DNA from: Dethiobacter sp.
Lineage (GTDB): Bacteria; Bacillota; Dethiobacteria; Dethiobacterales; Dethiobacteraceae
Assembly (NCBI GenBank): GCA_018333635.1
Contig: JAGXTL010000003.1
Span: 1-64,000, forward strand
Length of the DNA: 64,000 bases
Direction: 5' to 3'
This document shows positions 10,056 through 57,291 of the stretch, piece after piece; the first letter of the stretch is position 1, and each line of letters starts with the position of its first letter. Under the pieces are notes generated by a model. That model made no database searches. It was given only the letters and a program-made list of their open reading frames with translations, and had not been told where the DNA came from. Made by a program: the position numbers and the translations under genes.

Positions 10056-10149
10056 AGTTTTCCCGTAGATCTTTTTTTTTACTACGGCATATTTGTTGTT
10101 TTCTAACAGAAACTATAGTGAAGTGAATTGTTGAGGAGGATTGCAAACA

Positions 10150-12279
10150 ATGCCGGTAAATGATATTTTTAAATCGTTTGAACGCAGTGCGGAAAGAATG
10201 CGCGGTGATAATAAAACGTACGCTGCGGATTTAACAAAACAGGACTTCAATGATCCCGCTATGCACGAGCACGCTCATGATGCGAAGGTGGATTATGACG
10301 GGATCAATAAGTCGCCTTCCATGGAGAAGGTCCATCAGTGGCAACGCGAACATATCCAAAGAGAGGACCAGTCCAAAGAAGGGTATCCCTTAAATGTGAT
10401 TCTTGATCCTGCAATGCGGGAAATGTACCAGGTTGTGCATAATGCGGGGATGACCAACGTTTTTGACCGTTTTAGCCAGCAACAACCGACACAATGCAAG
10501 TTTTGCATCGAAGGCTTATCTTGCCAGCTTTGCGCCAACGGCCCCTGCCGCATCAGTCAGAAATCGCCGCGCGGCGTTTGTGGCGTGGACGCACACACAA
10601 TGGTGGCAAGAAACTTCATGTACCGGCATGTAACGATTGGGACAGCCGCAAACATTTTTCATTGTCACCAGGCGGCAAGAACCCTTAGAGCTGCCGGAGA
10701 ATCTCCTCAAAGCGGCCTGAAAATCCGTGACGCAAAAAAGCTGAAGAAATATGCGGATATGGTCGGATTGAATACGAATCAATCCGTAGAAAGATTGGCA
10801 GTTGAATTCGCCGATTGGGTCATCAATGATATTCATGCGCCACACCACGTGGAGTCAAGGGCCGTTGAAGCGTTCGCTCCCACTAAAAGAAAAGAACTTT
10901 GGCGGCAGTTAGGATTATTCCCCGGGGGCGGCTACAGTGAGGTTGCCTATGCGCAGACGCAGTGCATGACCAACTTTACATCGGATCCCATCGAATTTTT
11001 GTTAAGAGGGGTCCGTTTAGGGGTTGCCAACGAGTATCAAGGACTTTTCCTGCTGAACATTGTACAAGAGATTCTCATGGGTACCCAGGAAATCTCAATG
11101 AAACAACAGAACATGGGCTTGTTAAAAGAAAATATGGTGAATATCATTACCAACGGCCATATGCCGTTACTGGCTCATGTAGCCATTGACCTGGCATCCA
11201 GCGACGAGTGGCAGCAGAAAGCGCGACAAGCAGGGGCAGACGGTATGCAAATCCTGGGCCATGTCTGCGAAGGTCAGCAACTGGCCAATTATGAGGGGAT
11301 GCACAATCTGAAGGCGTTTGGAGGCCAGGAAGGCGAGTGGCTTTCGCAGGAGTATCTTCTGGCTACCGGTGTGGTTGATCTCTTCATGTTTGACTATAAC
11401 TGCACTGTTCCCACCATGCCGCTCTTTGCCAAGCGGTTTGGCACCAAACTGCTAAGCACCCATCCGGTTATTAAACTGCAGGGAACCGAAACACTGGACT
11501 TTGTGCCGGAAAAAATGAAGGAACAAGCAGAAAGAGCGTTAAGCATGGCGCTGGAAGCGTTTAGCAAACGGAAAGCGGAAAACAGGAAAACGTATATCCC
11601 GCCCCATATCTCCGATTGTATGGTGGGCTTCAGCACTGAATCCATTAAGAAAGCTTTAGGCGGAAGTTTTCAGCCTCTGATTGATCAGATTGCCAACGGC
11701 AATATCCGCGGCATTGCTACGATCGTTGGTTGCACAACGGCAAGATACGGCCAGGGCGGTAGCAATATCTTTAAGATTGCGAAAGGCTTGATTAGAAGTA
11801 ACATTTTGGTGCTCTCCGGCGGCTGTACTTCTTCTGTTATGGAATATACAGGACTGACTAATCCGAAGGCTGCGGAGGAGTGCGGTGAAACCCTCAAAGC
11901 TGTCTGCGAACAGTTAGGGATTCCGCCAGTTTTAACATACGGTGCCTGTGTGGATATCGGCAAAATGACGCATACGGCCATGGAACTGGCCGATGCGTTA
12001 AATGTGGATACCAACATGCTCCCGCTGGTGATCGGCGCTCCCGAATATTTGGAGCAAAAGGCTGTAGCCGACGCTTGCACCGCCGTTGCACTGGGCTGGC
12101 TTGTCCATGTGGCTCCCGTCCCCTCGATTACCGGCAGTGATGTGGTGGTAAAGACTCTGACAGAGACCACAGAAACGCTGGGCTTGGGTAAAGTGCTTGT
12201 GGAAATGGATGCGGAAAAGACAGTTCAGATTTACGTGGAACATATTGAGAAGAAAAGAAAAGAGCTGGGGCTAGACTGA
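10150..12279 (+). CDS. cooS: Anaerobic Ni-Fe CO dehydrogenase catalytic subunit (divergent, orphan)
   Basis: A 709-aa CooS-family protein that would interconvert CO and CO2. Aligned from memory to Carboxydothermus CODH-II, all C-cluster ligands are present: His337, Cys373, Cys418, Cys528, Cys559 and Cys600, plus the conserved Lys637. The N-terminal cluster region is CKFC (Cys116, Cys119) then Cys125, Cys128, Cys133 and Cys144. Cys116-x2-Cys119 replaces the usual C-x7-C of the D-cluster, a pattern linked to a [2Fe-2S] D-cluster. The histidine proton-relay positions read Asn168, His171, Gln174 and Arg177, so three of four are changed. The ~110-residue N-terminal extension is longer than usual. 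ATG at 10150 is nine bases after AGGAGGA; TTG at 10141 is too close. No cooC, cooF or acs genes adjoin it. Confidence 0.9.
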   Translation: MPVNDIFKSFERSAERMRGDNKTYAADLTKQDFNDPAMHEHAHDAKVDYDGINKSPSMEKVHQWQREHIQREDQSKEGYPLNVILDPAMREMYQVVHNAGMTNVFDRFSQQQPTQCKFCIEGLSCQLCANGPCRISQKSPRGVCGVDAHTMVARNFMYRHVTIGTAANIFHCHQAARTLRAAGESPQSGLKIRDAKKLKKYADMVGLNTNQSVERLAVEFADWVINDIHAPHHVESRAVEAFAPTKRKELWRQLGLFPGGGYSEVAYAQTQCMTNFTSDPIEFLLRGVRLGVANEYQGLFLLNIVQEILMGTQEISMKQQNMGLLKENMVNIITNGHMPLLAHVAIDLASSDEWQQKARQAGADGMQILGHVCEGQQLANYEGMHNLKAFGGQEGEWLSQEYLLATGVVDLFMFDYNCTVPTMPLFAKRFGTKLLSTHPVIKLQGTETLDFVPEKMKEQAERALSMALEAFSKRKAENRKTYIPPHISDCMVGFSTESIKKALGGSFQPLIDQIANGNIRGIATIVGCTTARYGQGGSNIFKIAKGLIRSNILVLSGGCTSSVMEYTGLTNPKAAEECGETLKAVCEQLGIPPVLTYGACVDIGKMTHTAMELADALNVDTNMLPLVIGAPEYLEQKAVADACTAVALGWLVHVAPVPSITGSDVVVKTLTETTETLGLGKVLVEMDAEKTVQIYVEHIEKKRKELGLD

Positions 12280-15231: not shown

Positions 15232-15361
15232 GCAATATAGAAATATGCATAGGAGGTGGGTCTCAACTGCTCCAATATATATGTCATTGTCTGGTATTTA
15301 GCGTAGCCGGGATACGGGTATGAGTAGCAGGCCCGGACACTACTAAGATGAGGTGATAGCT

Positions 15362-16114
15362 ATGCCCAGGCAGGCACGTAAAAAAAGCAGCAGCGGGATT
15401 TACCACATTATTTTGCGAGGAGTTAACAAGGAAGCGATTTTTCATGATCGCGAAGACAAGGAGAAGTTTTTGGCTACATTGAAATTCTATAAGAACGTTA
15501 GTGAGTATGAGCTCTTTGCTTACTGCCTTATGGATAATCATGTTCATTTGTTGATTAAAGAAGTTTCCGATCCGCTCCAAATAATAATTAAGAGATTTAG
15601 TTCAAGTTACGTAATATGGTTTAATAAAAAGTATATGCGATGCGGGCATTTGTTTCAGGAGAGATACAGAAGCGAAGCTGTTGAAAATGACAGGTATTTT
15701 TTAAGCGTTCTTCGCTATATACATCAAAATCCGGTGAAAGCCGGCATTATTAAACGCGTCGGTGATTACCAGTGGAGCAGTTTTAGTGAATTTATAGGCA
15801 AGCCGACGTTTGTGAACGTTGATTTTGTATTTGCATTTTTCGCGGATGAACGGTTTTTGGCTATAAATCTCTTTTCTAAATTTATAAATGAAATAAATGA
15901 CGATAAATGTTTGGAAGTAAAGAATCAGTTTACAGATAGCGAACTTGTTAAATATATTATCACAATGGGCTTAGATGAAGTTGGGGAACTCCAAAGTTAC
16001 AGCAAAGAACAGAGAAACGCTTTTATTAAAACATTGAAATCACTTGATGGTGTAACAATAAGGCAAGTTGAAAGGGTAACAGGGATAACGAGAAGCGTAA
16101 TTAGCAGAGCTTAG
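15362..16114 (+). CDS. REP-associated tyrosine transposase (RAYT, Y1 family)
   Basis: A 250-aa single-strand nuclease/transposase of the IS200/IS605-like Y1 superfamily, domesticated to mobilise REP hairpins. The N-terminus MPRQAR, then SGIYHIILRGVN, the HUH motif MDNHVHLL near residue 57, and the region RYIHQNPVKAG with GHLFQERYRSE are classic RAYT features. The C-terminal part ends in a DnaA-like helix-turn-helix (IRQVERVTGITRSVISRA). ATG at 15362 is five bases after GAGGTGAT. Three REP units in forward orientation lie upstream and three in inverted orientation downstream. The final codons lie inside a 44-bp unit that is repeated downstream. Confidence 0.93.
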   Translation: MPRQARKKSSSGIYHIILRGVNKEAIFHDREDKEKFLATLKFYKNVSEYELFAYCLMDNHVHLLIKEVSDPLQIIIKRFSSSYVIWFNKKYMRCGHLFQERYRSEAVENDRYFLSVLRYIHQNPVKAGIIKRVGDYQWSSFSEFIGKPTFVNVDFVFAFFADERFLAINLFSKFINEINDDKCLEVKNQFTDSELVKYIITMGLDEVGELQSYSKEQRNAFIKTLKSLDGVTIRQVERVTGITRSVISRA

Positions 16115-53356: not shown

Positions 53357-53400
53357 GTCCCCTCTCCACCCTCTGGGGGGAGAGGGTTAGGGTGAGGGGG
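53357..53400. repeat. Palindromic GTCCCCTCTCC repeat, copy 2
   Basis: The first 29 bases are identical to copy 1, followed by the extension GTTAGGGTGAGGGGG. It ends 30 bp before the degS start. Confidence 0.82.
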
Positions 53401-53430: not shown

Positions 53431-54573
53431 GTGCAGGCTTTAGCAGAACTTGATGGTGTCATAAAAAAAACGTTAACGGCGGTTGAGCAGGGTAAAAACC
53501 AGATTGCTTCAATTGCCGAGGGGATAAGAATGCAACGTGATGAGCTTCTGGCTCGTCTTGTTGAGATAAAAGGAGAGATTTTGGAGGTAATCACCAAGGT
53601 TGATAGACTTGAGCGTGAAGACAGGCTGGCGCGATTCCATTTAATGGAGGTGAACCGGAACTTTACCCGTTACGTTGAAAAGGATATTCAGGCTGCTTAT
53701 GAGGAAGCACAGCACATTCAACTGGAACTGACTCAGATGCGGGAACGGGAATTGCAGTATAGGCAACGGCGTGATCAACTGGAAATTTTGTTGCGTCGTA
53801 CTGCTGAAACACTGGCCAAGGCTGAAAAGTTGCAAGATCACGTGAATATGGCTTTACAGTTTTTGGCTGGTGGTGTTCAAGGTGTCAGCGTCCAATTAGA
53901 CGAGTTACACCTTCGCCAGCAGTTAAGTCTGCGGATCATTAAAGCGCAGGAAGAAGAACGTTCACGGGTTGCGCGGGAAATCCATGACGGACCGGCTCAG
54001 TCCATGGCCAATGTGGTGTTGCGTGCTGAGATTTGTGAAAAACTGATGACGGTTGAACCTGATAAGGTGCGGGAAGAGTTACACGATTTGAAGGAAATGG
54101 TGAAAGAGAGCCTGCAAGAAGTACGGAAAATTATTTTTAATCTCCGTCCCATGGTTTTGGATGATCTGGGGATAGTGCCCACACTGCGTCGTTTTATCCA
54201 AGAATTGCAGAAGAGAACAGAGATGAACATCGAACTGGTGGTGCTAGGCGGCGAGGAAGAACGACTGCCGGGCGTACTGGAAGTGGCTATTTTCAGGATT
54301 GTGCAGGAAGCGTTAAATAATAGTCAAAAACATGCTAAAGCAAGGCGATGTGTCATTAGGCTGGAAATATTAGCCAGCCGCGTAAACATTTCTATTGCTG
54401 ATGATGGTTGCGGCTTTGATACTGAACCGGTGCTTCATGGCTCTGAAAGAGACTGTTTTGGCCTCCTAGGCATGCGTGAGCGTGTGGAATTGCTAAATGG
54501 CCAGATTCGCATCGGCTCTGTTGCTGGCAAGGGAACAGAAATTTATGTTAGTATCCCGGTAAAGAAGAGGTGA
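53431..54573 (+). CDS. degS: DegS-type sensor histidine kinase
   Basis: 380-aa cytoplasmic kinase. An N-terminal coiled-coil sensor region (about residues 1-165) is followed by HisKA_3 with His185 in VAREIHDGPAQSMANVV, and an ATPase domain (EALNNSQKHAKA, DDGCGFD, GLLGMRERVELLNG). No membrane segment. Directly upstream of degU. GTG start at 53431. Confidence 0.93.
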   Translation: MQALAELDGVIKKTLTAVEQGKNQIASIAEGIRMQRDELLARLVEIKGEILEVITKVDRLEREDRLARFHLMEVNRNFTRYVEKDIQAAYEEAQHIQLELTQMRERELQYRQRRDQLEILLRRTAETLAKAEKLQDHVNMALQFLAGGVQGVSVQLDELHLRQQLSLRIIKAQEEERSRVAREIHDGPAQSMANVVLRAEICEKLMTVEPDKVREELHDLKEMVKESLQEVRKIIFNLRPMVLDDLGIVPTLRRFIQELQKRTEMNIELVVLGGEEERLPGVLEVAIFRIVQEALNNSQKHAKARRCVIRLEILASRVNISIADDGCGFDTEPVLHGSERDCFGLLGMRERVELLNGQIRIGSVAGKGTEIYVSIPVKKR

Positions 54574-54577
54574 ACAA

Positions 54578-55228
54578 ATGTCCCTGGAAAAAATCAGTCT
54601 AATTATCGTGGACGATCACGCTTTGATCCGCGACGGGCTCCGGAAGATTCTCGCTCTTTACGATGATTTGGTTGTGCTCGGGGAAGCCGCTGACGGTGAA
54701 ATTGCTGTTGTCCTGACTGGCGAACTAATGCCTGACATGGTGCTGATGGATATTAATATGCCCAATCTAAACGGTATTGACGCTACTCGTCAAATTAAGG
54801 CATTATATCCCGCCATTGGAGTTATTGCGCTCACCATACATGACGAAGAGGAATATATCTATGAATTGGTTAAGGCTGGAGTTTCTGCATACGTCTTAAA
54901 AGACATTGAGTCAGACAAGCTAATTGAGACTATCCGCGCGGTAAAACGCGGCGAAACAATCTACCATCCAAGAATTTCGGAGAAAATCTGCGGTGAATTT
55001 CAGCGGATAGCCAGGGAGCAAATAGTGAAAGAACCACTTTCAAAACGAGAAGGAGACGTATTGATTCTAATCGCCCGTGGCAAAACGAACAAAGAAATTG
55101 GCTTAGAATTATATATCAGCGAAAAGACAGTAAAAAACCATATCAGTAATATTTTTCGAAAAATTCAAGTTAGTGACCGTACGCAGGCAGCCCTCTATGC
55201 CGTGAAAAACCGGATTGTAAAACTATAA
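54578..55228 (+). CDS. degU: DegU-type response regulator (NarL/LuxR family)
   Basis: 216-aa regulator. Receiver domain with VDDHALIRDGLR, acceptor Asp in VLMDINMPN and Lys in YVLKDIESD. The C-terminal HTH has LSKREGDVLILIARGKTNKEI and SEKTVKNHISNI. It is 4 bp after degS. In Bacillus this pair controls motility, exoenzymes and multicellular behaviour; the nearby Tad pilus locus is one possible target. Confidence 0.93.
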   Translation: MSLEKISLIIVDDHALIRDGLRKILALYDDLVVLGEAADGEIAVVLTGELMPDMVLMDINMPNLNGIDATRQIKALYPAIGVIALTIHDEEEYIYELVKAGVSAYVLKDIESDKLIETIRAVKRGETIYHPRISEKICGEFQRIAREQIVKEPLSKREGDVLILIARGKTNKEIGLELYISEKTVKNHISNIFRKIQVSDRTQAALYAVKNRIVKL

Positions 55229-55292: not shown

Positions 55293-55613
55293 TTATTCCG
55301 GAAGCTGAACTTTTTTTGCCTGAACGACTTCCACGTCTTCTAAATATATTATCCCGGCGTAATTTATAAAAAAATCATCCATTACTTTGTCAACTATTTT
55401 TTCTGCAATTTCCGCACTTGTAACCACTTCAATTTTAACATTTTTATAGAGACTGCTGACTCCGTTGCCAAGCCTTAATCCCCTTTCTCCTTTTCCCGTA
55501 GCACCCATAATGGTATAAGCACTGACGCCCAGCTTTTGCAGCGCCTGTATCATCTCATCCAAAATATAGGATTCGGTTACAATAACAACCTTCTTGGCTT
55601 TATGAAATTTCAT
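55293..55613 (-). CDS. sbtB: SbtB-like PII signalling protein
   Basis: 106-aa PII-fold protein. GATGKGERGLRLGNG occupies the T-loop position of SbtB (cyanobacterial pattern G-x-G-G-K-G-x-R). VKIEVVTSAEIAEKIVDKV and FFINYAGIIYLEDVEVV match the SbtB core. The C-terminal redox loop CGPxGC found in some SbtB proteins is absent. SbtB binds adenine nucleotides including cAMP and controls the SbtA transporter. The sbtA gene is 228 bp upstream on the same strand, a strong context match. Confidence 0.85.
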   Translation of the reverse strand: MKFHKAKKVVIVTESYILDEMIQALQKLGVSAYTIMGATGKGERGLRLGNGVSSLYKNVKIEVVTSAEIAEKIVDKVMDDFFINYAGIIYLEDVEVVQAKKVQLPE

Positions 55614-55739
55614 TATGGTTTCCTCCCTCTTTTTTAAAAGCCTTACTTTGCGGAAATAAGCAAACAGAACAAAGGTAAGGCTGTAATCTGAGTTTACTAT
55701 AACAATCTGCTAAAAACTACCCTGAAACTAGCCACCACA

Positions 55740-55775
55740 GTCCCCTCTCCCTTTGGGAGAGGGTTAGGGTGAGGG
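55740..55775. repeat. Palindromic GTCCCCTCTCC repeat, copy 3
   Basis: Shorter-loop copy of the 53297/53357 repeat with the same GTTAGGGTGAGGG tail, in the sbtA-sbtB interval. Confidence 0.8.
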
Positions 55776-55841
55776 CAGAGTAAAGGATTACTCATTTTCT
55801 ACCGCTGGTGCCACCGGCAGTATGCGGGTCTGCCTATAGCC

Positions 55842-56864
55842 TTATAAGCCAAAGACTGCCATGCCAAGAGTTGTAAAGAACGGAACACAGAAAACTAAGG
55901 CTACCGGGGTGCCTAAACTTGTGGATGCACCGATATAGGCTGCAGGATTTGCGCTGGGCAATCCTCCGCGAATAGTAGGCGGGCCTGAAATATCAGAATT
56001 TGAGGCAGCAATTATAGCCAACATAATTACACCCCCCGGACTGAGTCCGGTTAAGAGATGAGCCAAATAACCAAAGCCAAAGCCGATAAATCCATGGACA
56101 AAAGGTCCCAACAGGGCATACAAAACATACCAGTGACCGACAGAAACGAGTGATTTTATGTGTTTAGCGGCATCCATGCCTAAAATTAGCATTAGAATCG
56201 AAAGAAATCCCCTAAAAAGCGGGTCGTAAAACCCTTCGAACACCTTTTCAGGACTTGTGAAAATCCCAAGCAAGAGGCCTACAATCATGGCGGAGATGGC
56301 AAACCCGCTGATACTTTCCCTGGCGATCGACTTAACTATTTTCAGATTAAACTTTTCGCCGCTCTTTGAGCTTTTGCGAAGATAGAGATTCCCGACAATT
56401 ACTGCTGTTATCAATGCGGGAATATCCATGAAAGGATAGAGTGCAGGGACCCAACCTTCAAACGGAATGCCCGCTTGTTCCAGGGCTAACATGCCAGCCA
56501 TGAGCGTGGCGCCGCTTACTGCTCCGAATAATCCCGCAGTACCCATGGCATCATCTTTCTTAATCCCTGGAAGTTTAGCTAAGGTGAGGGAGCCTAGAAG
56601 CACAATCGCTACCCCTATTACGACGCAGAATAAGGCAGGAATAGCCATGGCCGCCAGGCCTGCGATTCCTGCTTCTTTTATTTCCAGACCGCCGGCCATG
56701 CCAATTCTCATTAGCAGCATGAAAATGGTAAAATTGTAAATTGCTTCAGGTAATTTTAGCTCGGATTTAAAAAAAGCCAGGAAAAATCCTGCAATCAGAA
56801 ACGCCATAGCAGGCGATTGCAGTTCCCTGATAATTCCCCCCAACAAGCCTGTCAAATCTTCCAA
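55842..56864 (-). CDS. sbtA: SbtA-family sodium-dependent bicarbonate transporter
   Basis: 340-aa membrane protein with about ten hydrophobic segments and an internal two-fold pattern, of the SbtA family (PF05982). Family-like stretches include FLIAGFFLAFFKSELKLPEAIYN (residues about 25-45), GLFGAVSGATL, a cytoplasmic linker near residue 170-185, and IIAASNSDISGPPTIRG with LPSANPAAYIGAS near the C-terminus. SbtA imports HCO3- with Na+. TTG at 56864 follows AAAGGGTGATTGTC; GTG at 56873 lies in that site. A PII-like sbtB follows and a structured leader precedes. Confidence 0.87.
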   Translation of the reverse strand: MEDLTGLLGGIIRELQSPAMAFLIAGFFLAFFKSELKLPEAIYNFTIFMLLMRIGMAGGLEIKEAGIAGLAAMAIPALFCVVIGVAIVLLGSLTLAKLPGIKKDDAMGTAGLFGAVSGATLMAGMLALEQAGIPFEGWVPALYPFMDIPALITAVIVGNLYLRKSSKSGEKFNLKIVKSIARESISGFAISAMIVGLLLGIFTSPEKVFEGFYDPLFRGFLSILMLILGMDAAKHIKSLVSVGHWYVLYALLGPFVHGFIGFGFGYLAHLLTGLSPGGVIMLAIIAASNSDISGPPTIRGGLPSANPAAYIGASTSLGTPVALVFCVPFFTTLGMAVFGL

Positions 56865-56928
56865 GACAATCACCCTTTCCGTCAGCGTTAGTCATGAATA
56901 AGCTGAAATGTGCTAATTATTTCGCAAT

Positions 56929-56975
56929 AAAAAAAGCTACAAACACACCTCCCTTGAGGAAAAATGTTTTGTAGC
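56929..56975 (-). terminator. Leader terminator upstream of sbtA
   Basis: GCTACAAA/TTTGTAGC stem with an inner CCTC/GAGG helix and seven T on the minus strand, 65 bp before the sbtA start. A conditional terminator is likely. Confidence 0.85.
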
Positions 56976-57110
56976 CGCTATCCCAGTTTTTAATCAAGCT
57001 TAAACCCCAGGCAAACTAGCTATGCTCTTAAATTGGCGGTATGTACTGCCCTTCTCCTTTCTTTGAGAGATTGGCACTAACACCAAAGCGTTTTTCTTGT
57101 AGATGACTTT
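56976..57110 (-). promoter_or_regulatory. Candidate riboswitch/attenuator leader of sbtA
   Basis: About 130 nt of GC-variable sequence on the minus strand directly upstream of the terminator. It has self-complementary segments (GGAGAAGGGCAGTAC, ACCGCC, TAGCGGC) that could form an aptamer and an antiterminator. I do not recognise the class. The rest of 57111-57291 holds the flp leader with no gene. Confidence 0.5.
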
Positions 57111-57291
57111 TATTCTAACATGGGGCGGAGAATTTAGTCAAGTTGCCTGGTTTTAAAAATATTGAAAATTAGGACAATAGTCCTGTGCTTTTTGAGACGC
57201 TTGATGGATTCCAGCGCTCGCTTGGAGGTGCTAAACTGACAGTAGCAAAAAGTTTACGGAGATTATCCTAATACAAAATGGAGGGAAGAAA

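Follow-up and report, generated by a model that had tools for sequence, protein, structure and literature searches.

Results

The sbtA–sbtB locus

Two genes occupy the minus strand between 55293 and 56864 of the window, by which we mean the whole stretch of 64,000 nucleotides that was analyzed. The first, sbtA (55842–56864), encodes a 340-residue predicted Na+/HCO3− symporter of the canonical SbtA type (IAASNSDISGPPT) with a short TM5–TM6 loop; the second, sbtB (55293–55613), encodes a 106-residue PII-like regulator. Both reading frames lie where an earlier sequence-only reading had placed them, and the start of sbtA, a TTG codon at 56864, is upheld by a Shine-Dalgarno sequence, GAAAGGG, 8 nt away. 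A longer start at the GTG at 56873 was ruled out, since it would overlap the Shine-Dalgarno sequence.

The permease matches the Pfam family Sbt_1 (PF05982) with 257.6 bits in a profile search, against a cut-off of 27; this was the check that the earlier reading had proposed for its identification of the protein as SbtA. A phmmer search retrieved the Synechocystis SbtA (PDB 7cye), with which it shares 52% sequence identity, at an E-value of 3e-107. In the numbering of Slr1512, the Na+ site of SbtA consists of F110, G111, A112, A320, and S322 and the HCO3− site of S114, Y140, S324, and S327 (PMC8352866), and in our alignment all mapped residues of both sites are kept in the window permease, which has the site motif string FGASYDASSDSGPP in common with 78 other canonical rows ranging from Cyanobacteriota to Pseudomonadota. 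The AF2 model of the permease (pLDDT 91) shows the 5+5 TM elevator fold and can be superimposed on the SbtA–SbtB complexes 7egl, 7egk, and 7cyf with TM scores of 0.92–0.93; for 7egl, the HCO3−-bound structure, the score is 0.92 at 52% identity. By sequence, residue-level, phylogenetic (see below), and structural tests alike, the permease belongs within canonical SbtA, as had been claimed.

The small protein matches the Pfam P-II profile with 66 bits (cut-off 25). Among solved sequences, it comes closest to SbtB and to 3dfe, a cyanobacterial PII-like protein, with E-values from 6e-17 to 2e-15, while CPII and classical GlnB/GlnK follow at 6e-5 or weaker, about ten orders of magnitude behind; this ranking rules out a canonical PII (GlnB/GlnK) identity. 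The AF2 model has a pLDDT of 86.5, with low values in the T-loop, and its Foldseek matches are TTHA0516, SbtB (E about 1e-10), and CPII. As had been noted from the sequence, the NYAGIIYL core is present and the C-terminal CGPxGC R-loop is missing. This loop is accessory rather than family-defining, being found in about 50% of cyanobacterial SbtBs (PMC10991534). The PII tree places the window protein with its relatives from the CROMO serpentinite wells (support 99/95) and, more weakly, with a Lost City pair (94/80). The earlier reading had called the protein SbtB and named a phylogenetic position outside SbtB as what would refute it; the nearest sequences and the fold bear the assignment out, whereas the best tree unites the window protein with all other SbtBs on an unsupported branch (12/0). 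SbtB-type is the best assignment from sequence ranking and fold. The GYT motif has an almost invariant Gly, but in the window protein this position, residue 32, is Ala (SAYT); both close relatives keep the Gly.

The two genes follow each other on the same strand in the order sbtA, sbtB, in agreement with the order that had been described as kept, and in many phyla the canonical sbtA genes inspected almost always have a PII-like gene beside them. The spacer measures 228 bp, compared with 107–115 bp in the relatives. It contains an insertion of about 110 bp, missing in both close relatives, that harbors a REP-like repeat, GGGAGAGGGTTAGGGTGAGGG (55755–55775, plus strand), with an adjoining CCCTCTCCC arm. 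About 220 copies of GGGAGAGGGTTAGGGTGAGGG occur in the 2.4-Mb genome when up to 2 mismatches are allowed, against 0 for the reversed control, and a second copy in the window lies at 53378–53398. The window also encodes a Y1/IS200-like transposase (15353–16114, plus strand; Pfam Y1_Tnp, 52 bits), of the kind that mobilizes REP elements, from which the repeats may stem. Convergent with sbtB are genes for a sensor kinase and a response regulator (53431–55228), a neighborhood that is kept in two further loci (L006 and L007).

A structured leader RNA precedes sbtA

Upstream of sbtA, we predict a promoter on the minus strand at 57112–57141 (TTGACT-18-TAGAAT, with a TG before the −10 element), which matches the consensus at 10 of 12 positions and is 83–93% identical in the three relatives. 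It is followed by a structured 5′ leader RNA of about 175 nt (56929–57104, minus strand; core 56971–57090), made up of two hairpin domains and, behind them, an intrinsic terminator hairpin, GGCTACAAAA...TTTGTAGCTTTTTTT (56929–56976, minus strand; −17.9 kcal/mol, followed by 7 T). Folding predicts that the 5′ arm of the terminator (56972–56976) also closes an upstream helix (57018–57022), i.e., the second hairpin domain, and that the alternative conformations are within 1.5–4.7 kcal/mol of each other. Among three species the leader is 90–94% identical, compared with 63% at fourfold sites of sbtA and 55–61% in the stretch between terminator and Shine-Dalgarno sequence, and it folds more strongly than shuffled sequences (z about −2.9 to −4.0). 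The predicted pairs are kept in 99% of cells; with three sequences only, there is one compensatory pair, which is not above shuffles.

Covariance-model searches found the leader in three congeneric genomes, one copy in each and always before sbtA, but not in a fourth congener, which also lacks sbtA. No credible further copy was found among 98 genomes of the class and 398 of the phylum, beside the two paralogous Sbt_1–PII pairs (see below), beside the sbtA genes of other phyla, or in viral contigs scanned for motifs of the leader. The only extra hit (24 bits, in genome G453) lies inside an aminotransferase-like reading frame and was taken as chance. A search of Rfam 15 families returned no match at the gathering cut-off, nor up to an E-value of 10, and a known riboswitch class was rejected on this ground.

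Transcription of sbtA is probably controlled by this leader, by attenuation in which the upstream helix competes with the intrinsic terminator. As to the nature of the leader, we lean slightly toward either a protein-bound attenuator or simply a structured 5′ UTR rather than a ligand-binding riboswitch: the element is confined to three near relatives with one copy per genome, and its covariation is slight. Against such a simpler element speaks a conservation far above that of fourfold sites, as does an arrangement typical of riboswitches: both hairpin domains are conserved, and the terminator behind them has one strand in common with the upstream helix. A conserved leader peptide across the hairpin loop was rejected, as the length of the loop differs by 1–2 nt among the three relatives. 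More tentatively, the leader can be considered a candidate for an undescribed riboswitch class, one that would sense a ligand and switch bicarbonate uptake on and off via termination and that, within the genomes searched, would be confined to the Dethiobacter-like lineage. HCO3− or carbonate, Na+, or an adenine second messenger are among the signals about which one may speculate. In the seven papers that a full-text search on riboswitches and sbtA listed, titles and abstracts, as far as listed, make no mention of RNA control of this gene, and the leader RNA could be new.

Relatives, habitat, and carbon metabolism

The source genome (2.39 Mb, 98% complete) belongs to a Dethiobacter-like bacterium, a member of the Bacillota as judged by its nearest relatives. 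The nearest named SbtAs, at 93% identity, are those of Dethiobacter sp. CROMO_SB6 and 'Clostridium' CROMO_A_128, from the CROMO wells; over the stretches compared, two congeneric genomes have loci identical to those of these two MAGs. In the permease tree, a quick tree in which some long branches were flagged elsewhere, the window protein falls into a group of 7 rows with an SH-aLRT support of 99, together with the CROMO MAGs, Thermodesulfovibrionales MAG-1293, a Desulfotomaculum MAG, Desulfonatronaceae, and Hydrogenophaga. MAG-1293 is a Lost City genome named in PMC9469722, and the Desulfotomaculum MAG belongs to its naming series. Since four phyla are represented in this one group, the sequences suggest horizontal spread of SbtA. 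Within the Bacillota, Sbt_1 scored above the cut-off in 17 of 398 sampled genomes, and among those placed in the alignment only the source genome carries the canonical motif; within the family, canonical sbtA is present in the three congeneric genomes. Canonical SbtA is rare in Bacillota.

At CROMO, Dethiobacter OTUs accounted for about 14% of samples at pH 9.5–11, and acsB and cooS have been assigned to them (PMC5331062). Both Dethiobacter alkaliphilus strains that were studied possess the Wood–Ljungdahl pathway, and strain Z-1002 requires carbonate (PMC10376724). Judged from these relatives, the habitat of the source genome is probably alkaline serpentinite water low in dissolved inorganic carbon (DIC). 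The sequence-only reading had offered two settings for the pair, an alkaline, sodium-rich habitat or the supply of carboxylation in an anaerobe. As the nearest SbtA copies come from MAGs of CROMO serpentinite groundwater, the former is the better supported of the two; the latter is also plausible, given the presence of acetyl-CoA synthase.

The gene for this enzyme occurs twice in the genome, and by inspection a CooS-like protein is also encoded in the window (10141–12279). We did not find a β-carbonic anhydrase in the genome, and no γ-carbonic anhydrase was recognized, the Hexapep hits examined being acetyltransferase-like, CysE-like, or in long reading frames. The acetyl-CoA pathway uses CO2, not HCO3−; with no β- or γ-carbonic anhydrase recognized, the link from HCO3− import to CO2 fixation would therefore be only indirect. 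An either/or pattern of transporter versus carbonic anhydrase has been described in Firmicutes (PMC10880623), and the combination of SbtA without a recognized β- or γ-carbonic anhydrase in the source genome agrees with it.

The alkaline habitat of the relatives would also fit a role of the pair in pH or Na+ homeostasis, or in buffering the cytoplasm at high pH, instead of carbon supply, as would the lack of a recognized β- or γ-type enzyme to make CO2 from HCO3− for the acetyl-CoA pathway. We regard such a role as improbable, however. SbtA is known for high-affinity bicarbonate uptake, DIC is scarce in serpentinite water, and carboxylases that use HCO3− would need a supply of it in a cell without carbonic anhydrase.

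Paralogous permease–PII pairs

Two more Sbt_1 permeases, on contigs C37 and C104, are encoded in the genome. They are 33–34% identical to the window SbtA, and each is directly followed by a PII-like gene. Their motifs are altered (GASYVSVPA, GASFISAPI), while the equivalents of S114, Y140, S324, and S327 are kept. Neither these pairs nor the leader RNA and the spacer insertion had been remarked on in the earlier reading. Although these paralogues illustrate that Sbt_1 contains divergent subfamilies, so that the window permease might resemble SbtA in family only and carry another small anion or a carboxylate, we consider this very unlikely for a protein that has every mapped Na+ and HCO3− site residue, groups with cyanobacterial SbtA in the canonical clade, and matches the HCO3−-bound structure with a TM score of 0.92.

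Behind the C37 pair (locus L001, 619–3518 of contig G000:C37) lies a gene for an FMN_bind lipoprotein-like product, and a regulator of the Crp type is encoded upstream on the other strand. At a further locus (L121, 1593–3770 of contig G000:C70), genes for two DUF1538 membrane proteins precede that of a 229-residue protein with a PII-like repeat sequence. All four P-II matches in the genome, i.e., the three Sbt_1 pairs and L121, adjoin genes for membrane proteins, and no match has a score like that of classical GlnB.

Discussion

The window's SbtA and SbtB very probably constitute a working module for Na+-driven HCO3− import in an anaerobe with the acetyl-CoA pathway, with SbtB as an adenylate sensor and the leader as a control element. 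SbtA would work as an elevator-type symporter, a trimer that draws on the Na+ gradient to bring HCO3− into the cell, which would be of use when dissolved inorganic carbon is low. The imported HCO3− could be passed to bicarbonate-using carboxylases and, after dehydration, to CO2 fixation. SbtB, as a PII-like trimer, would bind adenine nucleotides; when the adenylate charge falls, its T-loop would enter the cytoplasmic cleft of SbtA and close the transporter. A PF00211 search of the genome returned no class III adenylate cyclase, which makes AMP/ADP/ATP or c-di-AMP a likelier signal than cAMP, and SbtB is accordingly proposed to read adenylate charge rather than cAMP. Because the R-loop is absent, thiol redox input to SbtB by that route is not expected. 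At the level of transcription, competition between the upstream helix of the leader and the intrinsic terminator would set the expression of sbtA.

A textbook cyanobacterial carbon-uptake module, together with its regulator, is thus present in a Bacillota member that uses the acetyl-CoA pathway and is related to bacteria of serpentinite groundwater. An SbtB devoid of the redox loop, in a genome devoid of a class III adenylate cyclase, offers a simple setting for nucleotide sensing, and the three permease–PII pairs of one 2.4-Mb genome lend themselves to comparing specificity for substrate and for signal. The leader, in turn, poses the question of whether bicarbonate uptake is switched by RNA in bacteria that live in DIC-starved fluids.

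The best-known counterpart is Slr1512–Slr1513 of Synechocystis sp. PCC 6803, which has the same gene order, Na+ and HCO3− site residues, both folds, and a PII partner with a T-loop. In contrast, the window pair is found in an anaerobic Bacillota host, its SbtA has a short TM5–TM6 loop (340 versus 374 residues), its SbtB lacks CGPxGC, its locus has a leader RNA with a terminator, and its genome has no class III adenylate cyclase. The SbtB fold is shared with TTHA0516 of Thermus and CPII of Thiomonas, both of which are among the top Foldseek matches alongside SbtB; however, CPII is only 22–25% identical to the window protein, and sequence searches put 3dfe and SbtB first. With transcription-attenuating riboswitches, the sbtA leader shares a promoter, folded domains, and a helix that competes with a terminator; it differs from them in having no Rfam 15 match and in being represented by only three sequences.

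Canonical SbtA has also been published from Serpentinimonas, Methanocellales Met12, and Lost City Methanosarcinaceae (PMC11176372, PMC9469722), and the SbtA phylogeny of serpentinization archaea and bacteria has been drawn (PMC11176372, PMC9469722, PMC7325909). Like the window SbtA, these proteins belong to alkaline, DIC-poor settings, and carbon acquisition by Na+ symport has been proposed for them there; the Serpentinimonas SbtA lies outside the 7-row clade of the window protein. The available portions of PMC11176372 and PMC9469722 mention neither a Dethiobacter SbtA nor SbtB partners, paralogous pairs, or a leader RNA. With SbtA of serpentinization microbes already published, the window pair itself is of a known type, and what is new are the two further pairs and perhaps the leader.
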